NCBI RefSeq assembly: GCF_900114715.1
Contig: NZ_FOTY01000011.1
Coordinates: 1-64,000 of the forward strand
Origin: Salibacterium qingdaonense
GTDB taxonomy: Bacteria > Bacillota > Bacilli > Bacillales > Marinococcaceae
Length of the DNA: 64,000 bases
Direction: 5' to 3'
Shown here: one piece after another, positions 2,509-55,691 of the stretch
How positions within the stretch are numbered: position 1 is the first letter of the stretch
How the letters are laid out: every line of letters starts with the position of its first letter
Translations under genes and position numbers: made by a program
Notes under the pieces: generated by a model
Seen by the model: only the letters and a program-made list of their open reading frames with translations
Database searches by the model: none
Told to the model about the DNA's origin: nothing

Positions 2509-2562
2509 GAAAGATCCATTTACTGGAGCTCTGCTGCGGTTGTTCTTGGCCGCAGCGGTTCG

Positions 2563-2756
2563 GTGGACACTAAACCACCCGGCAGTGCCCATAGCATCTA
2601 CGGAAGTACTGTTCGTGGACACTATTACTCCCCTGCCGGCAGATAGTGTCCATGGACTTCCGCCGGCACCTATTACTTCCTGCTTTCAGCGGCATAGTGT
2701 CCACAAAACAGTGATTCGTGTACACTATTCCCTTATTTTTCGACGGCAGTGTCCAC
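2563..2756. repeat. phased dyad array 1 (GTGGACACTA / TAGTGTCCAC), four units
   Basis: This covers most of the 418-base gap between mqo and topB. The forward word GTGGACACTA or a variant begins at 2563, 2615, about 2663 and 2718. The inverted word TAGTGTCCAC or a variant begins at 2583, 2644, 2695 and 2747. Most intervals are 51-53 bases. The bases between words are not conserved apart from patches such as CTATTACT and TTATTTTTCGA. A 224-residue frame crosses the array but has no ribosome binding site and runs antisense into topB, so the region is taken as noncoding. It is paralogous to the array at 27022-27214. Confidence 0.75.
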
Positions 2757-11397: not shown

Positions 11398-12186
11398 ATG
11401 CAAAATCCCTTTTCTAATCCAATCTCCATAGATCTTCTTATGAAGACTCTGGATGCCGCAGGCTCAGGTATTATCATTACTGACCCTGAAAAAAATGACA
11501 ATCCCATCATTTACGCAAATGAAGGTTTTTTTCATGTTACCGGCTACAAAGCAGAAGAAGTCCTCGGATTCAACTGCCGCTTCCTCCAGGGAACAGATAC
11601 CCCGCAGAAGGAGATTGATAAAATCCGGCATGCCATCCAGAATGTATCTCCTGTATCCGTCCAAATTCTGAACTACAGGAAAGACGGCACAGCGTTTTGG
11701 AATGATCTTCACATGGAACCTGTTTACATAGAAGAAGAAGATAAACATTATTTCGCCGGTGTACAAAAAGATATAACAAAGCAGCGCTCGGCTGAAGAAA
11801 AAGCCGCCGGCTACAACAAAGAAATTCAACTGCTTTCTGCGCCCATCATTCCCATTGCTGATGATATTTTTGCCCTTCCGGTTATCGGTAATGTGGATGA
11901 CGAACGGCTGCAGATTATATTCGATCAAACCACTGAAACGATTCATTCCTCCAAAGTGGGAGTGCTTATTCTTGATTTGTCCGGCCTCACAAGTCTGAAT
12001 GAGGAGACGATCAAAGGTCTCTTCAACCTGTATCATCTCGTCCGCCTGCTTGGTTCTGAACTTGTCATCACCGGCATCTCCCCTCATATGGCAATGAAGT
12101 CGAATCATCTGAACAGCGGGATCAGCAACATCAGAATTTTTTCTACGATTAAAGATGCTGTGAAGGTATTGCAGGAGAGTGATTAA
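11398..12186 (+). CDS. ytvA: YtvA-like blue-light LOV-STAS photoreceptor
   Basis: Flavin photoreceptor of the general stress response. Residues about 15-125 form a LOV domain with the signature GFNCRFLQG, in which Cys60 would form the light-induced adduct with FMN (Cys62 in Bacillus subtilis YtvA). The C-terminal half (about 150-260) is a STAS domain related to RsbR proteins, with ILDLSGL in the region that carries phosphorylation sites in stressosome proteins. The 262-residue length and order match YtvA. The ribosome binding site is GGAG 9 bases before ATG. Known family role: it joins the stressosome and activates SigB in blue light. No SigB operon is visible nearby. Confidence 0.92.
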   Translation: MQNPFSNPISIDLLMKTLDAAGSGIIITDPEKNDNPIIYANEGFFHVTGYKAEEVLGFNCRFLQGTDTPQKEIDKIRHAIQNVSPVSVQILNYRKDGTAFWNDLHMEPVYIEEEDKHYFAGVQKDITKQRSAEEKAAGYNKEIQLLSAPIIPIADDIFALPVIGNVDDERLQIIFDQTTETIHSSKVGVLILDLSGLTSLNEETIKGLFNLYHLVRLLGSELVITGISPHMAMKSNHLNSGISNIRIFSTIKDAVKVLQESD

Positions 12187-12214
12187 ATGTTGTAAAACAT
12201 TTTTCGTTCAATGC

Positions 12215-12243
12215 TTGCATTTATTTGAAAGCCATGATAAGAT
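12215..12243 (+). promoter_or_regulatory. SigA-type promoter of the cold-shock gene
   Basis: TTGCAT (12215-12220), 17-base spacer, TAAGAT (12238-12243). It predicts a 5' leader of about 105 bases before the start codon, long like other cold-shock mRNAs; it contains TTTTCCGGGCAATCG and may fold. Confidence 0.65.
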
Positions 12244-12356
12244 GAACTTGCTATTTTGTCACCTAAGATTGTTGGAATAAATTTTCCGGGCAATCGTAGC
12301 GTTTAGCAAGATAAGTAATTTATTTGGTGCGCAAAAAGCGTACACAGGAGGATCAC

Positions 12357-12557
12357 ATGGAACAAGGAACAGTTAAATGGTTTAACGCAGAAAAAGGCTT
12401 TGGATTTATTGAACGTGAAGGAGCAGACGACGTATTTGTTCACTTCTCCGCTATTCAGGAAGAAGGTTTCAAAACACTTGAAGAAGGCCAGCAGGTTAGC
12501 TTCGAAATCGTTGAAGGCGACCGCGGTCCACAAGCTGCTAACGTAAACAAACAATAA
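12357..12557 (+). CDS. cold-shock protein (CspA/CspB family)
   Basis: Single OB-fold RNA/DNA chaperone of 66 residues. Both nucleic-acid binding motifs are present: RNP1 KGFGFI and RNP2 VFVHFSAI. The typical start [10 protein letters not shown] follows AGGAGG with 5 bases of spacing, so the longer frame beginning 33 bases upstream is rejected. The long leader downstream of the promoter at 12215 fits post-transcriptional cold control. It is monocistronic, closed by a terminator at 12578. Which csp paralogue it is cannot be said. Confidence 0.95.
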
Positions 12558-12577
12558 TGACAACAAAGATATGAAAA

Positions 12578-12606
12578 GGACCCTCCACGCGGAGGGTTCT
12601 TTTTAC
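12578..12606 (+). terminator. terminator of the cold-shock gene
   Basis: ACCCTCC pairs with GGAGGGT around ACGC, followed by TCTTTTT. Confidence 0.9.
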
Positions 12607-16101: not shown

Positions 16102-16257
16102 ACCAGCCAAATTTCTTTATTTACATGCCAAATGCCCGTTCATACATGCCAAGTGAAAGGCAATACCGTCCGAGTCATTTTTTACAATCCAACCGGAGCT
16201 GAATACATGCCAAGTCTCTCCCTTCACATGCCAAATCAACTGGAATACATGCAAAGT
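16102..16257. repeat. phased array with 21-bp pitch (ACATGCCAAR word)
   Basis: The word ACATGCCAA followed by AT or GT begins at 16123, 16144, 16205 and 16226, with ACATGCAAAGT at 16247 and degenerate copies at 16102 (ACCAGCCAAAT), 16165 (ACCGTCCGAGT) and 16184 (ACAATCCAACC). All steps are 21 bases except one of 19. All copies share one orientation; the 10-base spacers are unrelated. The array lies between convergent gene ends and their terminators. No good ribosome binding site or coding frame was found. Confidence 0.8.
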
Positions 16258-16281
16258 CCAAAAAACAACAGCGCAGCTAAA

Positions 16282-22071: not shown

Positions 22072-22211
22072 TGATAATACCCCAGCACTGTTCCCCTTTC
22101 TTCCATAAAGTTTGAAAAATAATCTGACAACACATGCTTGTAATTGGAAATGATATGATACTATTTCTTTACATTATAGACGAAAGTCCGTGTTACAAAA
22201 GGAGTGTTTTT

Positions 22212-24509
22212 ATGGAAGAGCTTCAGTTTCATATTGATATGGTGTGGATTATGCTGGGAGCGGTGCTGGTGTTTAGCATGCAGGCTGGTTTTACCGCTCT
22301 GGAATCCGGCCTGACCCGGGCGAAAAATTCTATTAACGTCGCGATGAAAAATATGACGGATATTCTGATAGCATCGGTCGTGTTCAGCCTGGTCGGCTTT
22401 CCGCTTATGTTCGGGGCGTCGTACGGAGGATGGTTCGGCACGGATGCTTTTTTCTTCGAGGGGATGGATGACTCGTTTACGTGGGCCTTTCTTATGTTTC
22501 AGATTGTGTTTGCCGGAACAGCGGCGACGATTGTATCCGGCGCCATCGCCGAGCGGGTGAAATTCAGCGGTTATATTCTCGGTACAATCGGTATTGTTAT
22601 AATTATTTATCCAGTTTTCGGCCACTGGGCGTGGGGAAGCTTGTGGAATGCCGACCAGAGCGGCTGGCTGGAGGCAATGGGCTTTGTTGATTTTGCCGGG
22701 TCGACCGTCGTCCATTCCATCGGCGCCTGGACAGCTCTCGGCGCCCTTCTCGTAGTCGGCCCGCGTATTGGAAAGTTCGATCAAGACGGGCGGCCGGCGG
22801 AATTTGGCGGCAGCAACACCGTGTTGGCCGCGCTTGGTGTGATGGTGCTCTGGATCGGCTGGTTTGGATTCAACGGTGCCTCCACATTGACGGCTGATGG
22901 AAGCATCGCGCTTATTCTTTTAAACACACAACTTGCTGCGGCAGCCGGTGGTATCGCGGGTCTTGGGACCGGCCGCTGGATGCACGGAAAATTAAAAGCA
23001 GAAAGCTTGTTGAACGGAGTGATCGGCGGTCTCGTCGGTATTACGGCCGGGGCTCATCTTATGGATCCCCTGTCATCACTTGTCATTGGCTTTCTTGGCG
23101 GCGCAGCTGCAGTGGCGGGTGCCAAAGCACTGGAACGTTTCCGGATAGACGACGCCATCGGAGCTGTCGGTGCGCACGGTTTTGCGGGCGCCTGGGGAAC
23201 TTTGGCAGTAGCTGTGTTTGCACCCATTGAAGCGCTCCCCGCCGCCGGGCGCGGAGCCCAGCTGCTCATTCAGTTTACCGGCGTGGCCGCTGCGTTTGGC
23301 TGGGCTTTCTCCCTCGGTTTTGCCCTCTACTGGATCCTGGATAAAGCCATTCATCTCAGGGTGTCAAAAGAAGACGAGCTTGCCGGGCTGAATGTGTCCG
23401 AGCACGGGGAACATATTGCGCTGGTGGATACCATCTCTGCGATGCAGGAAATCGCCGCATCCAAAGGAGACTTGACGAAAAAACTGCCGGTTGAGCCCGG
23501 CGAAGATAACGCGGAAGTCCATTCTGCTTTCAATACACTGCTGGACAAGTTGAATACATTAATAGGAGAAGTGAAAGCGCAGGCCCGGGTGGTTGAACAG
23601 GAAACCGGGCAGATCAGCGGCATCTCCTCGACCATCGAAGATCATTCTCATCATCAATATCAGTTCGTCAACGATTCGATCGGCTATTTTCATAATGCTT
23701 CACGGCAGTTTGAAGAAAACACTGCATCCACCCAGGAACTGATTGCCTCCATTCAGGAAACCTTCCAGTCGATCAGTGAATGGGGCCGGGATTTACAGGC
23801 GTTTAAAGAAGAACTCGACAGCATGCAGGGGGTTGTCCAGGAAGCCGATGAGTCGAACCGGCACGTGCAGCGATCGGTACAGCAGGTGAGCCGCACATTA
23901 ACGGATATGAACGAACAGTCGACCGATATTCAAGATGCGATTTCAACCATTAATGGTATTTCCGAACGCATCAATCTTTTATCCCTGAATGCTGGAATCG
24001 AGGCGGTTCGTGCCGGAGAATCCGGGAAAGGATTTAAGGTCGTTGCCGAAGAGATCAAAAAGCTCGCGGAAGAAGCCAAAACCTCCACCTCGCGTATCAC
24101 AGGGATCCTGGAGCAGAACACGGAAATGATTGCCTACGGAAACCGCAGCATGGAGGAATGCAGTGCACGAAGTACGAGCCTTCAGGAGACTCTCGGCCAG
24201 ATACCAGTTCTTTTCTCGACGTTTCAGGAGAATATGGATCACATGACGCGGGGCACCGCGTCCATGAACGAACGGCTGGATCAGATGAAAACTGAAACCA
24301 GCAGACTCGGCACGTCCCAGCAGGAGCAGCTGGAAGAAATGCAGCGGCTGCTTTCGATGATGGACACGATGCAGGATACGACCGCCGAAAATGCCACCCT
24401 TGCCCGGCAGCTGCGGGAACAGATGCAGAGCCTGCAGGAGCGGAGCATGCAGCTAGGTGCCGAAGTGAATCAATTCACCATCGAAGAAGCACCTGCTGCC
24501 GGCTGGTAA
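22212..24509 (+). CDS. ammonium transporter fused to a methyl-accepting chemotaxis signalling domain
   Basis: A 765-residue fusion. Residues 1 to about 395 are a complete Amt/Rh domain with eleven helices, including Asp160 and His168 in [13 protein letters not shown], Phe220-Asn221 in WFGFNGAS, and the second pore histidine His322 in [11 protein letters not shown]. These are the ammonium-conducting residues of the family. Residues about 425-470 resemble the end of a HAMP domain ([18 protein letters not shown]). A coiled-coil receptor domain follows with the CheW/CheA-binding hairpin tip near 585-625 ([20 protein letters not shown]). No periplasmic ligand domain exists, so the transporter itself is the probable sensor for ammonium. 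Start ATG 22212 has AAAGGAG upstream. Amt fusions to kinases are known; this pairing implies ammonium taxis, which is inference. Confidence 0.9.
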
Positions 24510-24542: not shown

Positions 24543-24725
24543 AGCGCATGCCCATTTTTGGACGTGCGCTCTTCTACGATGCACTTCCTGCTGTGGAAAC
24601 AATTATTGTGACTCTTAGACGCTGCCTAAACCACACATTTTCGGCTTGCCGCTCCAATTGTGACTCTTACCGCTTTTCTACGAGTCACAATCACAGCCTC
24701 TCTGCCAAATTGTGACGCTCAGACA
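24543..24725. repeat. phased dyad array 2 (TTGTGACTCTTA / GAGTCACAA)
   Basis: TTGTGAC begins at 24606, 24658 and 24710, exactly 52 bases apart, with a diverged first unit near 24555. Inverted copies include GAGTCACAATC (24682) and a decayed one near 24632. The first unit contains a hairpin, AGCGCATGCCC against GGACGTGCGCT. The array lies between the convergent ends of the Amt-receptor gene and the DUF3221 gene. It shares sequence with the array at 25179-25360. Confidence 0.75.
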
Positions 24726-25178: not shown

Positions 25179-25360
25179 GAGCGCACGCCCTATATTTGGA
25201 CGTGCGCTGGTCTACGCTGCACTTTTTGCTTTTCAAACATTCATTGTAACTCTTAGACGCTGCCTAACCCTCACTTTTTCGGCTTGCCGCTCCAATTGTG
25301 ACTCTTACCACTTTTCTACGCGTCACAATCGCAGTCGTTCTACCAAATTGTAAGGCTTAG
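25179..25360. repeat. phased dyad array 3 (TTGTRACTCTTA), paralogue of array 2
   Basis: TTGTAAC at 25244, TTGTGAC at 25296 and TTGTAAG at 25348 are 52 bases apart; a diverged first unit begins near 25194. Inverted copies are CGTCACAATC at 25321 and a decayed one near 25270. The leading hairpin AGCGCACGCCC against GGACGTGCGCT is the same as in array 2. Several spacers are shared with array 2 (for example CGGCTTGCCGCTCCAA), showing that the two are duplicates. Confidence 0.75.
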
Positions 25361-26653: not shown

Positions 26654-27021
26654 ATTATCCACCTCTTTCTTATAATACCTATATTATTAGTAGGGATTTA
26701 GAACAATCATATTATATACCGCCTTAAACCATATTGTAAAGTTAAATGCCCAGTTTTCTCATTTACTGGAGTACCGGGGATTTGTCGTTTTTTTGTTATC
26801 ATAGAAGAGGCTGTATCAAAAATCTGTGAATAAAAAAATGCCTCGTCGACATATTGAGTATGCGCTGCAGGCGGACACTTTTCCTCCAGAGTACAAGAGC
26901 GGCATCGACTCGCAGATGCTCACTGCGTCTTCTTCCCTCTGGAGATGTATCTGTTTTTTTGCAGAAAAAGGGCCGTTACATCTGGAATCGAGCTTTGGCT
27001 GTTACGTACCGGAGTGGCTTC

Positions 27022-27214
27022 GTGGACACTGCATCGCCTGAAAAACACTTAGAGTCCACGGAGGTAGTGTTTGGGGACACTGAGACTTCCCCGCCGTCGG
27101 TTAGTGTCCTTTGATTTACGCCTGCACCCACTAATCCCTGATTCCAGCGGCGTAGTGGACATTAAGCGGTGCTTTGTGGATACTACGCCCCTATTTTTCG
27201 ATAATAGTGTCCAA
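27022..27214. repeat. phased dyad array 4 (GTGGACACT / TAGTGTCCAC), paralogue of array 1
   Basis: Forward words begin at 27022, 27073, 27124 and 27176 (steps 51, 51, 52); inverted words at 27050, 27102, 27153 and 27205 (52, 51, 52). Degenerate copies stay in register. The first and last units match those of array 1 (CTATTTTTCGA before the last inverted word). It is noncoding. Confidence 0.8.
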
Positions 27215-27317
27215 AACTGGAGGAATTGCAGCCGAAAGCGGCCCGCTGAAATACACGGCATGCACTTATCCTCCAGAGCACAACCGCGGCATTCCTTTCC
27301 TGCCTATGATTCAAAAA

Positions 27318-27354: not shown

Positions 27355-28884
27355 TTAATTCCGTATCAAGTAGTCAAAGGCGCCAAGAGCTGCAGAGGCT
27401 CCGGATCCCATTGACGTAATAATCTGTTTATACGGCATATCGGTGCAGTCGCCTGCCGCGAAGACGCCGGGAACATCGGTGGCGCCTGTTTTATCCGTGA
27501 CGATTTCACCGAATTTATTCTTTTCTACCGTATCCTCAAGCCATGCGGTATTTGGATCAAGGCCGATCTGGACAAAAACACCGGCGAGTTCAATGCTGCG
27601 CTCTTCGTCAGATTCGCGGTCTACATAGCTCAACCCCTGCACCTTACTCTCGCCGTAAATTTCAGATGTACGTGCATTGGTGATAACCGTCACGTTGGAG
27701 AGGCTGTGCACCCGTTCCTGCAGCACGCTGTCTGCGTTCAATTCAGGCAGGAATTCGAGGATCGTAACGTGCTTGACGATACCGGCTAAATCGATCGCGG
27801 CTTCAATGCCGGAGTTCCCCCCGCCGATGACCGCTACATCTTTTCCTTCAAACATCGGACCGTCACAGTGCGGGCAGTAGGCGACGCCTTTATTGGTGAA
27901 TTCCGCTTCGCCTGGTATACCGATCGTTTTCCAGCTCGCGCCGGTGGAAAGAACGATGGTTTTACTCTGCAGCGCCGCACCGTTTTCCAGTTTCAGCTCG
28001 AAATCGTCTTTTTTCTCCAGTGAGTCGGCGAGCATGGAATCCAGGATATCGACATCATAGTCGCGGACGTGTTCTTCAAGGCTCGCTGTCAGCTGCGGTC
28101 CTTCGGTGTACTTGGTCGCGACAAAGTTTTCGATCCCCTTGGTATCTGCTACCTGGCCGCCGAAACGATCCGCTACAATACCGGTACGAATGCCTTTTCT
28201 CGCCGCATAAATGGCAGCACTCGCGCCGGCCGGTCCACCGCCGACAATGAGCATGTCATACGGATCTTTATCGTTCAGGGCGTCGACATCCACTGCCGTA
28301 TTTCCGAGTTTTTCAAGGATACTTTTCAGCGTCTGGCGTCCATCCACAAAAGCATCTCCATTTAAGTAGACAGACGGAACAGCCATCACATCTTTATTCT
28401 CTGCCTCGTCTTTAAAGGCTGACCCTTCAATCATCGTATGGGTGATATCCGGGTTAATGACACTCATAAGGTTCAGCGCCTGCACCACATCCGGGCAGTT
28501 ATGGCAGGACAGGCTGACAAATGTCTCAAAATGAAGCGGACCTTGCAGCTGTCTGATTTGTTCAAGCACCTGCTCTTCTTCTTTCGGAGGACGGCCGCTC
28601 ACCTGCAGCAGTGCCAGAACCAGGGACGTGAATTCGTGGCCGAGCGGTACACCGGAGAATACAACACCTGTATCTTCGCCGGGCCGGTTCACACTGAAAC
28701 TCGGCACCCTCGGGAACTCTCCCTGTTCCATCGTGATTTTATCAGACATACCGGTGATTTCCTGCACGAGTTCATCTACTTCTTTCGAAACATCGTCGGA
28801 GCCGAACTGCACTTTCAGAACAATGTCGTTTTCGAGCAGTTTCAAATACTCTTTAAGCTGTGATTTAATTTCCTGATCGAGCAT
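27355..28884 (-). CDS. ahpF: alkyl hydroperoxide reductase subunit F
   Basis: NADH-dependent flavoprotein disulfide reductase that recharges AhpC. The 509-residue product has an N-terminal thioredoxin-like double fold with the redox pair Cys127/Cys130 (SCHNC), then an FAD strand (MLIVGGGPAGASAAIYAARKG), the catalytic CPHC (Cys337/Cys340) and an NAD-binding strand (VAVIGGGNSGIEAA). The C-terminal FAD segment is GVFAAGDCTDMPYKQI. ahpC lies 115 bases upstream on the same strand, the usual order. A hairpin in the gap may give different levels of the two products. Confidence 0.95.
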   Translation of the reverse strand: MLDQEIKSQLKEYLKLLENDIVLKVQFGSDDVSKEVDELVQEITGMSDKITMEQGEFPRVPSFSVNRPGEDTGVVFSGVPLGHEFTSLVLALLQVSGRPPKEEEQVLEQIRQLQGPLHFETFVSLSCHNCPDVVQALNLMSVINPDITHTMIEGSAFKDEAENKDVMAVPSVYLNGDAFVDGRQTLKSILEKLGNTAVDVDALNDKDPYDMLIVGGGPAGASAAIYAARKGIRTGIVADRFGGQVADTKGIENFVATKYTEGPQLTASLEEHVRDYDVDILDSMLADSLEKKDDFELKLENGAALQSKTIVLSTGASWKTIGIPGEAEFTNKGVAYCPHCDGPMFEGKDVAVIGGGNSGIEAAIDLAGIVKHVTILEFLPELNADSVLQERVHSLSNVTVITNARTSEIYGESKVQGLSYVDRESDEERSIELAGVFVQIGLDPNTAWLEDTVEKNKFGEIVTDKTGATDVPGVFAAGDCTDMPYKQIITSMGSGASAALGAFDYLIRN

Positions 28885-44257: not shown

Positions 44258-44277
44258 AATACGAAGGATAAAAAAAT

Positions 44278-44335
44278 AATCCGAACGAGGGATACGGCAT
44301 GCTGTGTGCTGTTTCCCTCGTTCGGATTTTTTCGT
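44278..44335 (+). terminator. strong terminator after the 151-aa gene
   Basis: AATCCGAACGAGGGA pairs with TCCCTCGTTCGGATT across a 21-base loop, then TTTTT. Confidence 0.9.
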
Positions 44336-44450
44336 GGCTCTGTTCAAATGGAGTACTTTTTCATCCGCAGCCCTGCACGAAAGCAGGTGGAGCGTTCGCT
44401 TTTCATTTAATGGGATTTTATGAAGATTACAGACAAGAGGTGCGGAGAAA

Positions 44451-44600
44451 TGTCCATAACCTGAAAATAAGGGACAGGTTGAATCGCGTGACACAGAAAA
44501 ATGTCCAGTATATATAAATAACAGACACTTTCCGCCAGCAAGTCCAGTAAGTGTCCAGTAAAAGAAAATACTGGACACTCTGGTGCTGGTGCTGTCTATA
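44451..44600. repeat. phased dyad array 5 (TGTCCAGTA / TACTGGACACT)
   Basis: TGTCCA begins at 44451, 44502 and 44552; the inverted GACA core begins at 44473, 44524 and 44574. Steps are 51 and 50 in both series. A further TGTCTA lies 41 bases on at 44593. Noncoding; it lies after the terminator at 44278 and directly before array 6. Confidence 0.7.
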
Positions 44601-44640
44601 AAAACCATCCTATAGCCCACAATAGAGCTGACACCGGAAA

Positions 44641-44765
44641 ATTGTGACACTTAGACTGATTCTACGGGTTCCTTTTTTGGCCAACTGACCGAAATGTGAC
44701 GTTTAGCGGCAGGCTGCGCGTCACTTTTTCGTATCCTACGGGCCATTGTGACGGTTACACACAAG
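44641..44765. repeat. phased array 6 (TGTGAC word)
   Basis: TGTGAC begins at 44643, 44695 and 44747, exactly 52 bases apart, each followed by a TTA-containing segment. Inverted GCGTCAC lies at 44718. The word is like that of arrays 2 and 3. The remainder of the 657-base gap 44258-44914 (44340-44450 and 44766-44880) holds AAGAGG-GGRGAAATGTCC repeats (44436 and 44764) and no gene I can support. Confidence 0.7.
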
Positions 44766-44914
44766 AGGCACGGGGAAATGTCCCGTCTATAAACAACAGA
44801 CACCGGCGTGAAGGGACAACTGGACGAGTGCTGTGCATTCTGCGGTGACTGAGGCTTGCTGTGTTACCAACTCCTGCACCAAAAGACTCGAATAACGAAT
44901 CGTCTGGGTCTTTT

Positions 44915-46102
44915 TTATACTTGGACTTCTTTTAGATTCTGTTCTTTTTTGTTCTTGAGAAAGGCTTTTTGGTTCACGAGGAAACAGGCGGTGCTCATCA
45001 CAGCGAGGAGAAGAAATCCGATGGCGTAAGCCCCGGTCATGTCGCGCACGACGCCGAGCAGAATCGGTGGGAAAAATCCGCCGAGTCCTCCGGCTGCACC
45101 AACGATGCCGGTGACGGTTCCGGTCGCACTTGGAAAAATACTCGGAACCATCTTGAAGACAGCACCGTTTCCAACCCCGGACGCCGCCGCAAGCAGCAGA
45201 CTGGCGGCCGTCATGAGCATCATGTTTTCCCCGCCGATGGCAATCCCGGCTCCACCTGCCGCGACCGTGAGAAACACCCCTGCCAAAATAGGCCCCGGAG
45301 CTAATTTATCAGCAGCAAACCCACCGAGCGGGCGGATGAACGTGGCGAGTATAATAAACCCGGCCGTCCGACGTCCCGCATCCACTGCCGACAAGTCAAA
45401 CACATCAGTGAGCAGCGTCGGCAGGTACACGCTGAACGTCACAAAGATACCGAACGTGACGAAATAAAACAGCGACAGCGTCCACGTATGTTTGTACGTA
45501 AGCACCGACAGTTCTCCTTTTACGGTGCGGGACGTATCCGCACTCGGCGTTTCCGGAGTGAAAAACCAGAGGAGCACCGCCATCGCGGCAATCGGCAGAA
45601 TCAACGACCAGAATACCCACTCAAGACCCGCGGCAAGCGCAATCATCGGCAGCGCCAGACTGGCCGCGGCCGTACCCGCGTTACCGAGCGCATTGATGCC
45701 GAGCGCGGTCCCCTGCTTTTCTTTCGATGTCCATTTCGAAACAAACGTCATCGATACCGCAAATGATGTACCGGCCATCCCGAGGAAAAAAGCACAAACG
45801 AGAAGCGCTGCGTACGAATCCACAAATCCTGCCGCGGTGAGCGGTACAATCAGAAACAAAAGCAGCAGCGTATAGACTTTTCTCCCTCCGTACTTTTCCG
45901 TCAGAATGCCAAGCGGTACCCGCATCACCGAACCAAGCAGCACCGGCACCGCGGCGAGCACACTTTTTTCTGTGGCGGACAGGTTGTACGTCTCCCCGAT
46001 CTGATTGATCAGCGGAGAAAACGCCCCCCACACCATAAAAGCCACCGTCATTCCAATCGTCGTCAACAGCAGCAGACTTCCTCCAGCACGTTTTTGTTCC
46101 AT
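44915..46102 (-). CDS. narK: NarK-type nitrate/nitrite transporter (MFS)
   Basis: 395-residue, twelve-helix transporter of the nitrate/nitrite porter group. The conserved motifs are AFFLGMAGTSFAVSMTFVSKW (first nitrate-binding signature region), NALGNAGTAAASLALP and SGVGNGAVFKMVPSIFP, the second signature. MEQKRAGG follows GGAGGG. It is monocistronic; no nitrate reductase genes are nearby. Direction (nitrate uptake or nitrite export) cannot be told. A weak hairpin (44884-44911) follows the stop. Confidence 0.9.
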   Translation of the reverse strand: MEQKRAGGSLLLLTTIGMTVAFMVWGAFSPLINQIGETYNLSATEKSVLAAVPVLLGSVMRVPLGILTEKYGGRKVYTLLLLFLIVPLTAAGFVDSYAALLVCAFFLGMAGTSFAVSMTFVSKWTSKEKQGTALGINALGNAGTAAASLALPMIALAAGLEWVFWSLILPIAAMAVLLWFFTPETPSADTSRTVKGELSVLTYKHTWTLSLFYFVTFGIFVTFSVYLPTLLTDVFDLSAVDAGRRTAGFIILATFIRPLGGFAADKLAPGPILAGVFLTVAAGGAGIAIGGENMMLMTAASLLLAAASGVGNGAVFKMVPSIFPSATGTVTGIVGAAGGLGGFFPPILLGVVRDMTGAYAIGFLLLAVMSTACFLVNQKAFLKNKKEQNLKEVQV

Positions 46103-49425: not shown

Positions 49426-49590
49426 GGTCGTGAGGCGCGCTCTAGCGACCAGTTCCAAGCCGCATCACAGAACAAACGGCCCCTGGGCATCCCCCAGGGA
49501 CCGTTTCCCTCCTGCTCCAGCGAGTAACTAGCTCTTTGCACCGCCCTAGCGACCCATTCATTCCCCATTTGCGCGTAATTTGGTCGTTAG
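49426..49590. repeat. phased dyad array 7 (GGTCGTNAG / CTAGCGACC)
   Basis: CTAGCGACC at 49442 and 49546, with CCAGGGACC in register at 49494: steps of 52. GGTCGTGAG at 49426 and GGTCGTTAG at 49582, three steps of 52 apart, with GGCCCCTGG at 49478. The in-register middle unit forms the hairpin CCCTGGG-CATC-CCCCAGGG. Each pair is a short dyad (GGTCGTGAG-N7-CTAGCGACC). Together with the promoter and the terminator at 49613 it fills the gap 49230-49680. Confidence 0.75.
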
Positions 49591-52958: not shown

Positions 52959-53115
52959 GACATTTTTCTTCTGCTTTTGTCCGTAACCCGTCGATGATAG
53001 ACAGTTTGCCTCTCATTTTGTCCTGTATCTTTTTTTACTGGACACTTCTTCCCGCAAACTTGAGGAAAGTGTCCGGTATCCTGATATAATGGACACTTTA
53101 AACCGGGAAGTGTCT
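52959..53115. repeat. phased dyad array 8 (TGGACACTT / AAGTGTCCGG)
   Basis: The core GACA begins at 53000, 53041 and 53092 (steps 41, 51) and the inverse GTCC at 52979, 53020 and 53071 (41, 51). Further copies are GACA at 52959 (41 earlier) and GTGTCTGT at 53110. The word is the same as in array 5. Steps of 41 and 51 differ by about one helical turn. It lies between the start of the DUF454 gene and the HAD terminator. Confidence 0.65.
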
Positions 53116-53116
53116 G

Positions 53117-53152
53117 TAAAAAAACCTGCCGCCCGAAAGGCAGCAGGTTCCA
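53117..53152 (-). terminator. terminator of the HAD/aldo-keto operon
   Basis: AACCTGCTGCC pairs with GGCGGCAGGTT on the minus strand with one mismatch, followed by seven T. Confidence 0.85.
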
Positions 53153-54884: not shown

Positions 54885-55668
54885 GCGTAAACGTCACTCG
54901 GTATCGGTTCCAGTTACGTTTACACCACTCCCGCCTCCCGTAAACGTCATTAGAAATCTCTCCGGGTTACGTTTACGCCTCTTACCGCGGCGCAATCGTA
55001 ACTCGGCAGCCCTGCCTCACGCCGGCAGCCTCTCTGCATGCAATGATTGAATGGCTACGTTCATTGTAGATTGGCTCCAGCGACGTTTCCCGCTGCTCCG
55101 GGACCCCTAAACGCAACTCGGAACCTGCCCCAGTTGCGTTTGCACCTCTCCCGCCTCCCGTAAACGTCATTAGAAACCTCTCCGGGTTACGTTTACGCCT
55201 CTTACCGCGGCGCAAACGTAACTCGGCAGCCCTGCCTCACGCCGGCAGCCTCCCTGCATGCAATGATTGAATGGCTACGTTCATTGTAGATTCGCTCCAG
55301 CGACGTTTATCGCTGCTCCGGGACCCCTAAACGCAACTCGGTATCCGTTCCAGTTACGTTTGCACCTCTCCCGGCTCCCGTAAACGTCATTAGGAACCTC
55401 TCCGGGGTACGTTTACGCCTCTCCCCCCGGTACAAACGTAACTCGGCAGCCCTGCCTCACGCCGGCAGCCTCCCTGCATGCAATGATTGAATGGCTAAGT
55501 TCATTGTAGATTGGCTCCAGCGACGTTTCCCGCTGCTCCGGGACCCCTAAACGCAACTCGGAATCTGCCCCAGTTGCGTTCACACCACTCCCGGCTCCCT
55601 TAAACGTCTTTAGAAACCTCTCCGGGTTACGTTTACACCTCTCACCCCGGTACAAACGTAACTCGGCA
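54885..55668. repeat. phased array 9 with a 220-bp higher-order tandem repeat (AAACGTMAC / GTTACGTTTAC)
   Basis: TAAACGTCAT recurs at 54941, 55161 and 55381 with TAAACGTCTT at 55601, giving an exact 220-base period over about 3.5 copies at high identity. Inside each copy, forward AAACG words lie 52-53 bases apart (54889, 54942, 54994; 55109, 55162, 55214) and inverse TTACGTTTAC 53 apart (54914, 54967). 220 is not a multiple of three and frames break between copies. It fills most of the 957-base gap between two minus-strand genes; 54735-54884 holds the aldo/keto reductase upstream region only. Confidence 0.85.
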
Positions 55669-55691
55669 GCACCTGCAGCAACCTGAGGCGG

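Follow-up and report, generated by a model that had tools for sequence, protein, structure and literature searches.

SalA, a dispersed intergenic element of eight regularly spaced words in Salibacterium

The intergenic array that starts at position 27022 of the window (the whole stretch of 64,000 nucleotides analysed here, C47:1-64000 of the 3.52-Mb, 68-contig genome of Salibacterium qingdaonense) is one copy of a dispersed element of about 193 bp, here named SalA. SalA is composed of eight GTGGACACTA words of 10 bp (consensus RTGGAYACTR) set in alternating orientation at fixed offsets. We consider it fairly probable that these words are eight half-sites for one protein that binds duplex DNA, and that the phased complex so formed outside transcription units serves as a boundary or as a chromosome-organising platform. 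The anatomy of the 27022 copy, with its forward (F) and inverted (R) words, was established from the word positions, and the element itself also from nhmmer and covariance-model searches:

27022..27213, + strand: SalA element, four F-R units with eight words (nhmmer 180 bits; covariance-model search E=4.8e-43)
27022..27031, + strand: word F1, GTGGACACTG
27050..27059, - strand: word R1, which reads TAGAGTCCAC on the + strand
27073..27082, + strand: word F2, GGGGACACTG
27102..27111, - strand: word R2, which reads TAGTGTCCTT on the + strand
27124..27133, + strand: word F3, GCACCCACTA, decayed, a systematically weak site (family consensus CCACTA)
27153..27162, - strand: word R3, which reads TAGTGGACAT on the + strand
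27176..27185, + strand: word F4, GTGGATACTA
27205..27213, - strand: word R4, which reads TAGTGTCCA on the + strand (inverted word TAGTGTCCAA from 27205)

All eight words had been placed at these positions by the first-pass annotation, and they correspond to the eight sites conserved in the full-length copies of the family.

The most over-represented intergenic 9-mer, TGGACACTA, occurs in clusters that share one fixed layout. Full-length copies, of 181-194 bp, account for 87 of the 102 distinct SalA copies, and about 10 of the 102 are without one F-R unit. In the 87 full-length copies the words stand at offsets 0+, 29-, 52+, 81-, (103)+, 132-, 155+ and 184-, the third forward word being weak in the family consensus as it is in the 27022 copy. 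Each element carries four units, a near-fixed number, with mutually unrelated spacers and alternating orientation. Among copies the spacers are about 47% identical, which indicates common ancestry, and alignment revealed weaker similarity over about 40 bp upstream and about 30 bp downstream of the core. Since the copies share descent, part of the constant spacing is inherited, and the arrays of one family are not independent cases.

F-R dyads with a gap of exactly 19 bp and at most one mismatch numbered 76 in this genome and 106 in S. halotolerans, compared to 0 in reversed controls, and all but one of 22 perfect R-F dyads had a gap of 13 bp when 10-16 bp was permitted. No perfect R-F dyad was found in the 29 other genomes sampled, two other Salibacterium among them. 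A sequence-only covariance model gave at least 111 matches in this genome and at least 143 in S. halotolerans, many loci being counted once per strand; in the same two Salibacterium it gave 3 matches and 1 match. After removal of overlaps and identical copies, at least 50 and at least 49 copies were retained in this genome and in S. halotolerans, respectively, all genome-wide counts of SalA being lower bounds. The distribution is uneven, with several copies in C48 and C39 and none in the 240 kb of C54 that were examined. With regard to a phage origin, viral contigs contained no exact SalA dyad and no CGGACATnTGTTCCGTTATT. A literature search of partial coverage found no published description of SalA, and no Rfam family matched the array. 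The only Rfam match elsewhere in the window was a cspA thermoregulator at 12155-12605 (+), with 85 bits against a gathering score of 78, in a Gram-positive halophile.

Comparison of same-locus pairs between this genome and its sister species S. halotolerans (n=22) showed that the words differed at 187 of 1619 positions (11.6%) and the spacers at 700 of 2590 (27.0%), corresponding to an odds ratio of 0.35 (p=4e-35); one element of this genome sits in two of the 22 pairs, which are therefore not fully independent. Gap openings within SalA numbered 35, about one third of the 112 expected from the flank rate. Slower change of the words, together with fewer indels, argues that words and spacing are maintained by selection in place, after insertion. 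The 27022 copy by itself shows no constraint: its words (5/75) and spacers (8/117) differ at equal rates between the sisters, the divergence being too small. The adjoining AhpF gene is 97% identical to that of S. halotolerans and 85% to that of S. aidingense. The first-pass annotation had proposed a constraint on spacing rather than on sequence. The first part of this proposal agrees with our data and the second does not, since the word appears to be the best conserved part within each family, and probably under purifying selection.

Conservation in place bears on the possibility that SalA is a MITE, the words of which would bind a transposase in trans so that only bindable copies spread, with no role for the host. 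SalA resembles MITEs in being small, dispersed and non-coding, with its first and last words as terminal inverted repeats; a family of common ancestry with conserved inverted ends, a lineage-specific copy number, and two loci that carry SalA in this genome and are without it in S. halotolerans are all compatible with such an origin. However, even decay is expected after insertion, yet words and spacing are kept while spacers drift at shared loci. Simple TIR transposases need fewer than eight regularly phased sites, and neither a target-site duplication nor an empty site could be cleanly recognised, the two syntenic SalA-free sites being rearranged. The transposase-site reading explains dispersal but not in-place conservation, and we consider it unlikely; both observations would be accommodated by an element that was once mobile and then acquired a use.

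SalA copies are placed just outside transcription units, usually past a terminator, as judged from a simple longest-ORF gene call. The 27022 copy has the terminator of the AhpF gene on one side and the promoter region of the next gene on the other, and the second copy in the window is surrounded by convergent genes that both have their own terminator-like hairpin:

2562..2755, + strand: second SalA copy, convergent gene pair around it (nhmmer 183 bits)

SalA sides face gene 3' ends in 118 cases and gene 5' ends in 60. The median distance from stop codon to SalA is 116 bp, distances to 5' ends being looser, and a terminator-like hairpin separates the stop codon from SalA in 68 of 111 cases compared to 14 of 98 shuffled flanks. 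Convergent gaps are more frequent than among long intergenic regions (37 of 89 for SalA, 26 of 113 in the background) and divergent gaps less frequent (8 of 89). Tandem gene pairs flank half of the copies, and this, like the 60 sides that face a gene start, would suit operators of individual downstream promoters. Such operators are nevertheless quite improbable in view of the convergent and divergent gap frequencies and of distances that vary little to 3' ends and more to 5' ends; furthermore, the layout is orientation-symmetric, and at least 50 operators of such size would be unusual. A promoter reading, with TGGACA as a -35 box, was dropped, a possible -10 box being found at F1 only in the consensus.

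With SalA read as an array of protein half-sites, the reading that we favour, its location would fit a boundary role. A universal operon boundary is unlikely, because no SalA is present in the 240 kb of C54. A matS-like terminus marker also looks unlikely, if only weakly so with unordered contigs: the SalA-free C54 carries mutS, infB, parC and acnA. It should also be noted that a second dispersed module (CTCCAGAGCACAAGGGCGGCATCGATTCGC ... CGTGTCTTC) is often found beside SalA (26884-26960 and 27266-27310 in the window; L028 4370-4430; C48 94180-94300) and has about 20 partial matches in S. aidingense.

In the 13 F/R word pairings analysed, compensated two-sided changes showed no clear excess over permutation, one pairing reaching p=0.02. 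For F1/R1, 4 two-sided changes (3 of them compensated) were counted against 106 one-sided changes, with a permutation p of about 0.34 for the compensated ones. The changes accepted at word positions 1 (G to A), 5 (A to C), 6 (C to T) and 10 (A to G) are the same in F and R words, which would be expected if a single protein read its site in both orientations. The absence of covariation between paired words speaks against hairpins in RNA or single strands and in favour of a protein on duplex DNA, the kind of explanation towards which the first-pass annotation had leaned. It is thus highly improbable that the words are the stems of RNA or single-stranded DNA hairpins, whether REP/REPIN/BIME-like and moved by a RAYT (Y1) transposase or serving as signals for RNA processing, and this hypothesis was rejected. 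SalA does share inverted words, alternating orientation and a position between genes with BIMEs, as these are described in PMC2817692. On the other hand, it contains no GTAG-tagged palindrome, many arrays lie past terminators, and related arrays with a 21-bp pitch have no inverted words. The Y1_Tnp domain (PF01797) had 0 matches in this genome, in which some small contigs were masked, in a search that was positive in controls and in six of seven genomes, and 1 match in S. halotolerans. RAYT/IS200 was therefore rejected as the driver of SalA.

In the model of a duplex-binding protein, one sequence-specific protein would bind the RTGGAYACTR half-sites of SalA, those of the same orientation lying five helical turns (51-52 bp) apart with opposite-orientation sites between them. 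With such five-turn phasing, the bound protein would be expected to form a regular multi-subunit complex along about 190 bp. This complex might act as a boundary, either as a roadblock to read-through transcription and/or as a barrier to the spread of supercoils; a role as a chromosome-organising platform is equally open. Other families, with a pitch of 51-53 or 21 bp, may be the targets of paralogous or unrelated proteins arranged in the same geometry.

A pitch of about 52 bp common to different words had been noted in the first-pass annotation, with an expected excess at 51-53 and 21 bp over shuffled sequence. Within the window, peaks of 6- and 7-mer matches between genes stand out from dinucleotide shuffles at 51, 52, 103, 104, 21 and 42 bp, and lags of 53, 52, 21, 106, 42 and 103 bp are high over about 615 kb of the genome, whereas in coding controls the peaks fall on multiples of 3. 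The anticipated excess was thus present, also at 42 bp, and as had been suggested the spacings lie near whole helical turns (2 turns for 21 bp, 5 turns for 51-53 bp). A comb score of at least 4 was obtained for 10 of 252 intergenic regions and for 0 of 756 shuffled ones. Masking SalA left 52-53 bp as the most frequent array pitch, present in 6-7 regions whose words are different (TTGTGAC, GACGTTT/TAAACGTC, AAGGCACTTTA and CTAAGCGTC). In the intergenic regions outside the window, the strongest single 6-mer lag is 117 bp, which the 21/52 arrays do not explain. The arrays of other words in the window are the following:

16125..16258, + strand: ACATGCCAAGT direct-word array, pitch ~21-22
24606..24720, + strand: TTGTGACnCTTA array, pitch 52, inverted word at 24682
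25244..25360, + strand: second version of the 24606 array, duplicated and since diverged (87% identical across 129 bp)
44451..44594, + strand: TGTCCA-type words, pitch ~51, plus a palindromic AGTGTCCAGTA pair
44643..44760, + strand: TGTGAC array, pitch 52
49442..49590, + strand: CTAGCGACC words, pitch 52, CCAGGGACC at 49494, inverted copy at ~49582
52984..53120, + strand: TGTCC / GGACACT words, both orientations
54887..55676, + strand: GTAAACGTnACT / AGTTACGTTTAC alternating array, pitch 53, later duplicated as a 220-bp tandem (3.6 copies)

The words that the first-pass annotation had listed in these arrays are present at their positions, some of them with one or two mismatches (TTGTAAC at 25244, TTGTAAG at 25348, the word at 49494 and AATCG at 54994). 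They were described as unrelated, and they do differ between families, but words recur genome-wide and are not unique to one array. The TTGTGACnCTTA pattern gave only two matches in this genome, overlapping within one array, and none in five other genomes. S. halotolerans offers no clear ortholog of region 44260-44920. It does retain the 54889 array, with 11/60 differences in words and 22/67 in spacers, a trend that does not reach significance (p=0.07). The 220-bp tandem at 54888-55676, built on this AAACG array in 3.6 copies that are 91% identical, is recent and was the only tandem detected by TRF in the window; the same locus of S. halotolerans holds about two units, showing that unit number changes quickly. 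Elsewhere in the genome, 53-bp arrays in which two different forward words, AAGGCACTTTAG and TAAACGTCRTTAG, stand about 26 bp from each other (L028 4650-5100, C48 93730-94075 and C54 67650-67870), indicate that two interleaved words can share one pitch. In addition, a 791-aa protein encoded at 22134-24509 (+) of the window combines an ammonium transporter (Amt) domain with the signalling domain of methyl-accepting chemotaxis proteins, apparently a fusion of transporter and receptor.

True tandems atop some arrays, at 54888-55676 and in L175, would be in keeping with ordinary tandem duplication and decay, 52 bp being a slippage period without constraint, but this is barely credible and was rejected, because words evolve more slowly than spacers in the sister-species comparison that the first-pass annotation had put forward, because ordinary tandem repeats have alike units and even divergence whereas SalA has unrelated unit spacers, alternating orientation, a near-fixed unit number and uneven divergence, and because the same pitch occurs with unrelated words in several genera.

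The statement of the first-pass annotation that no described family has these properties was too strong, as staphylococcal STAR elements and enterobacterial BIMEs are close in kind. STAR elements are intergenic 14-bp words, T(G/A/T)TGTTG(G/T)GGCCC(C/A), with locus-specific spacers and ~50-nt repeats; their loci are species-specific, purifying selection has been suggested and their function is unknown (PMC3532100). Like SalA (51-53 bp), they belong to Bacillales, are intergenic, and combine short words and variable spacers in a repeat of about 50 nt. Unlike SalA, they have one GC-rich word in direct orientation and a variable repeat number, SalA having a 10-bp word in alternating orientation, near-fixed four units, exact spacing and at least about 50 copies per genome. 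The STAR 14-bp consensus is matched by neither the SalA word nor any array word in the window. BIMEs are regularly spaced alternating units between genes for which a protein-binding role has been proposed, according to PMC2817692 and PMC3733652, and a REP unit is a palindrome of 20-40 bp that bears a GTAG tag and has a RAYT as its partner (PMC3733652). SalA differs in its 10-bp words without internal hairpin, in the lack of covariation and in the lack of a Y1 transposase in this genome, and it differs from MITEs in its eight phased internal sites, in words that change more slowly than spacers at shared loci and in that no target duplication was found. Plasmid iteron and parC-type arrays have phased short direct sites about 21 bp apart that are cooperatively bound, but these are plasmid replication or partition loci and not dozens of chromosomal intergenic copies. 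CRISPR arrays, with identical repeats of 21-48 bp, unique spacers and Cas genes, are implausible given the word length and alternating orientation of SalA.

Other-word families appear, from the sequences sampled, to keep a similar fixed-spacing geometry in Bacillales. In S. aidingense, the 18-bp word GGACATnTnTTCCGTTAT is arranged in an F, F, R, R layout at 0, 51, 108 and 159; of seven arrays, four match these offsets throughout, a fifth departs from them by 1 base in its second half, another is without the first word, and in the last 31 replaces 51, a shift of 20 bp. L189, which belongs to a different family of the order, contains this layout at two places, with saturated spacers (30-42% identical to those of S. 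aidingense) and words averaging 84% over the set. When the pattern permitted 46-56 bp, the five GGACATnTnTTCCGTTAT pairs found were all at exactly 51. In L175, from another genus, CATAAGACCA recurs at 52 bp, these units being further duplicated as larger blocks, and TTCGGCG and TTTATCAGC recur at 21 bp in L174 and L179, each in a single 20-kb sample; sampling outside Salibacterium was small, and each family there rests on one or a few arrays. The G023 array had no match among plasmids. Counted once per region, pitches peak at 52-53 bp in this genome, at 51 in S. aidingense and at 21/42 in the sister Salibacterium G002, with weak peaks at 21/52/104 in the pooled genera.

We tentatively suggest that Bacillales may harbour widespread intergenic protein-binding arrays set by geometry (two or five helical turns), with lineage-specific words and proteins whose specificity shifts quickly, STAR being one branch; we would not be surprised to see this suggestion fail. 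Dozens of selected ~190-bp non-coding elements outside transcription units would point to a plentiful DNA-binding system, so far undescribed, among relatives of B. subtilis. A shared geometry with exchangeable words would separate the question of what is bound from that of how the complex is built, two questions that tend to be treated as one for intergenic repeats, and it provides a testable hypothesis for the STAR elements. Finally, contig C4 of G002 (L151-L160; for example at 28797, 87255, 130186 and 156768) carries direct-word arrays of GCCGAT and TTTACTAGCC at a 21-bp pitch, and the 21-bp words of several genera have a GCCRA core in common.
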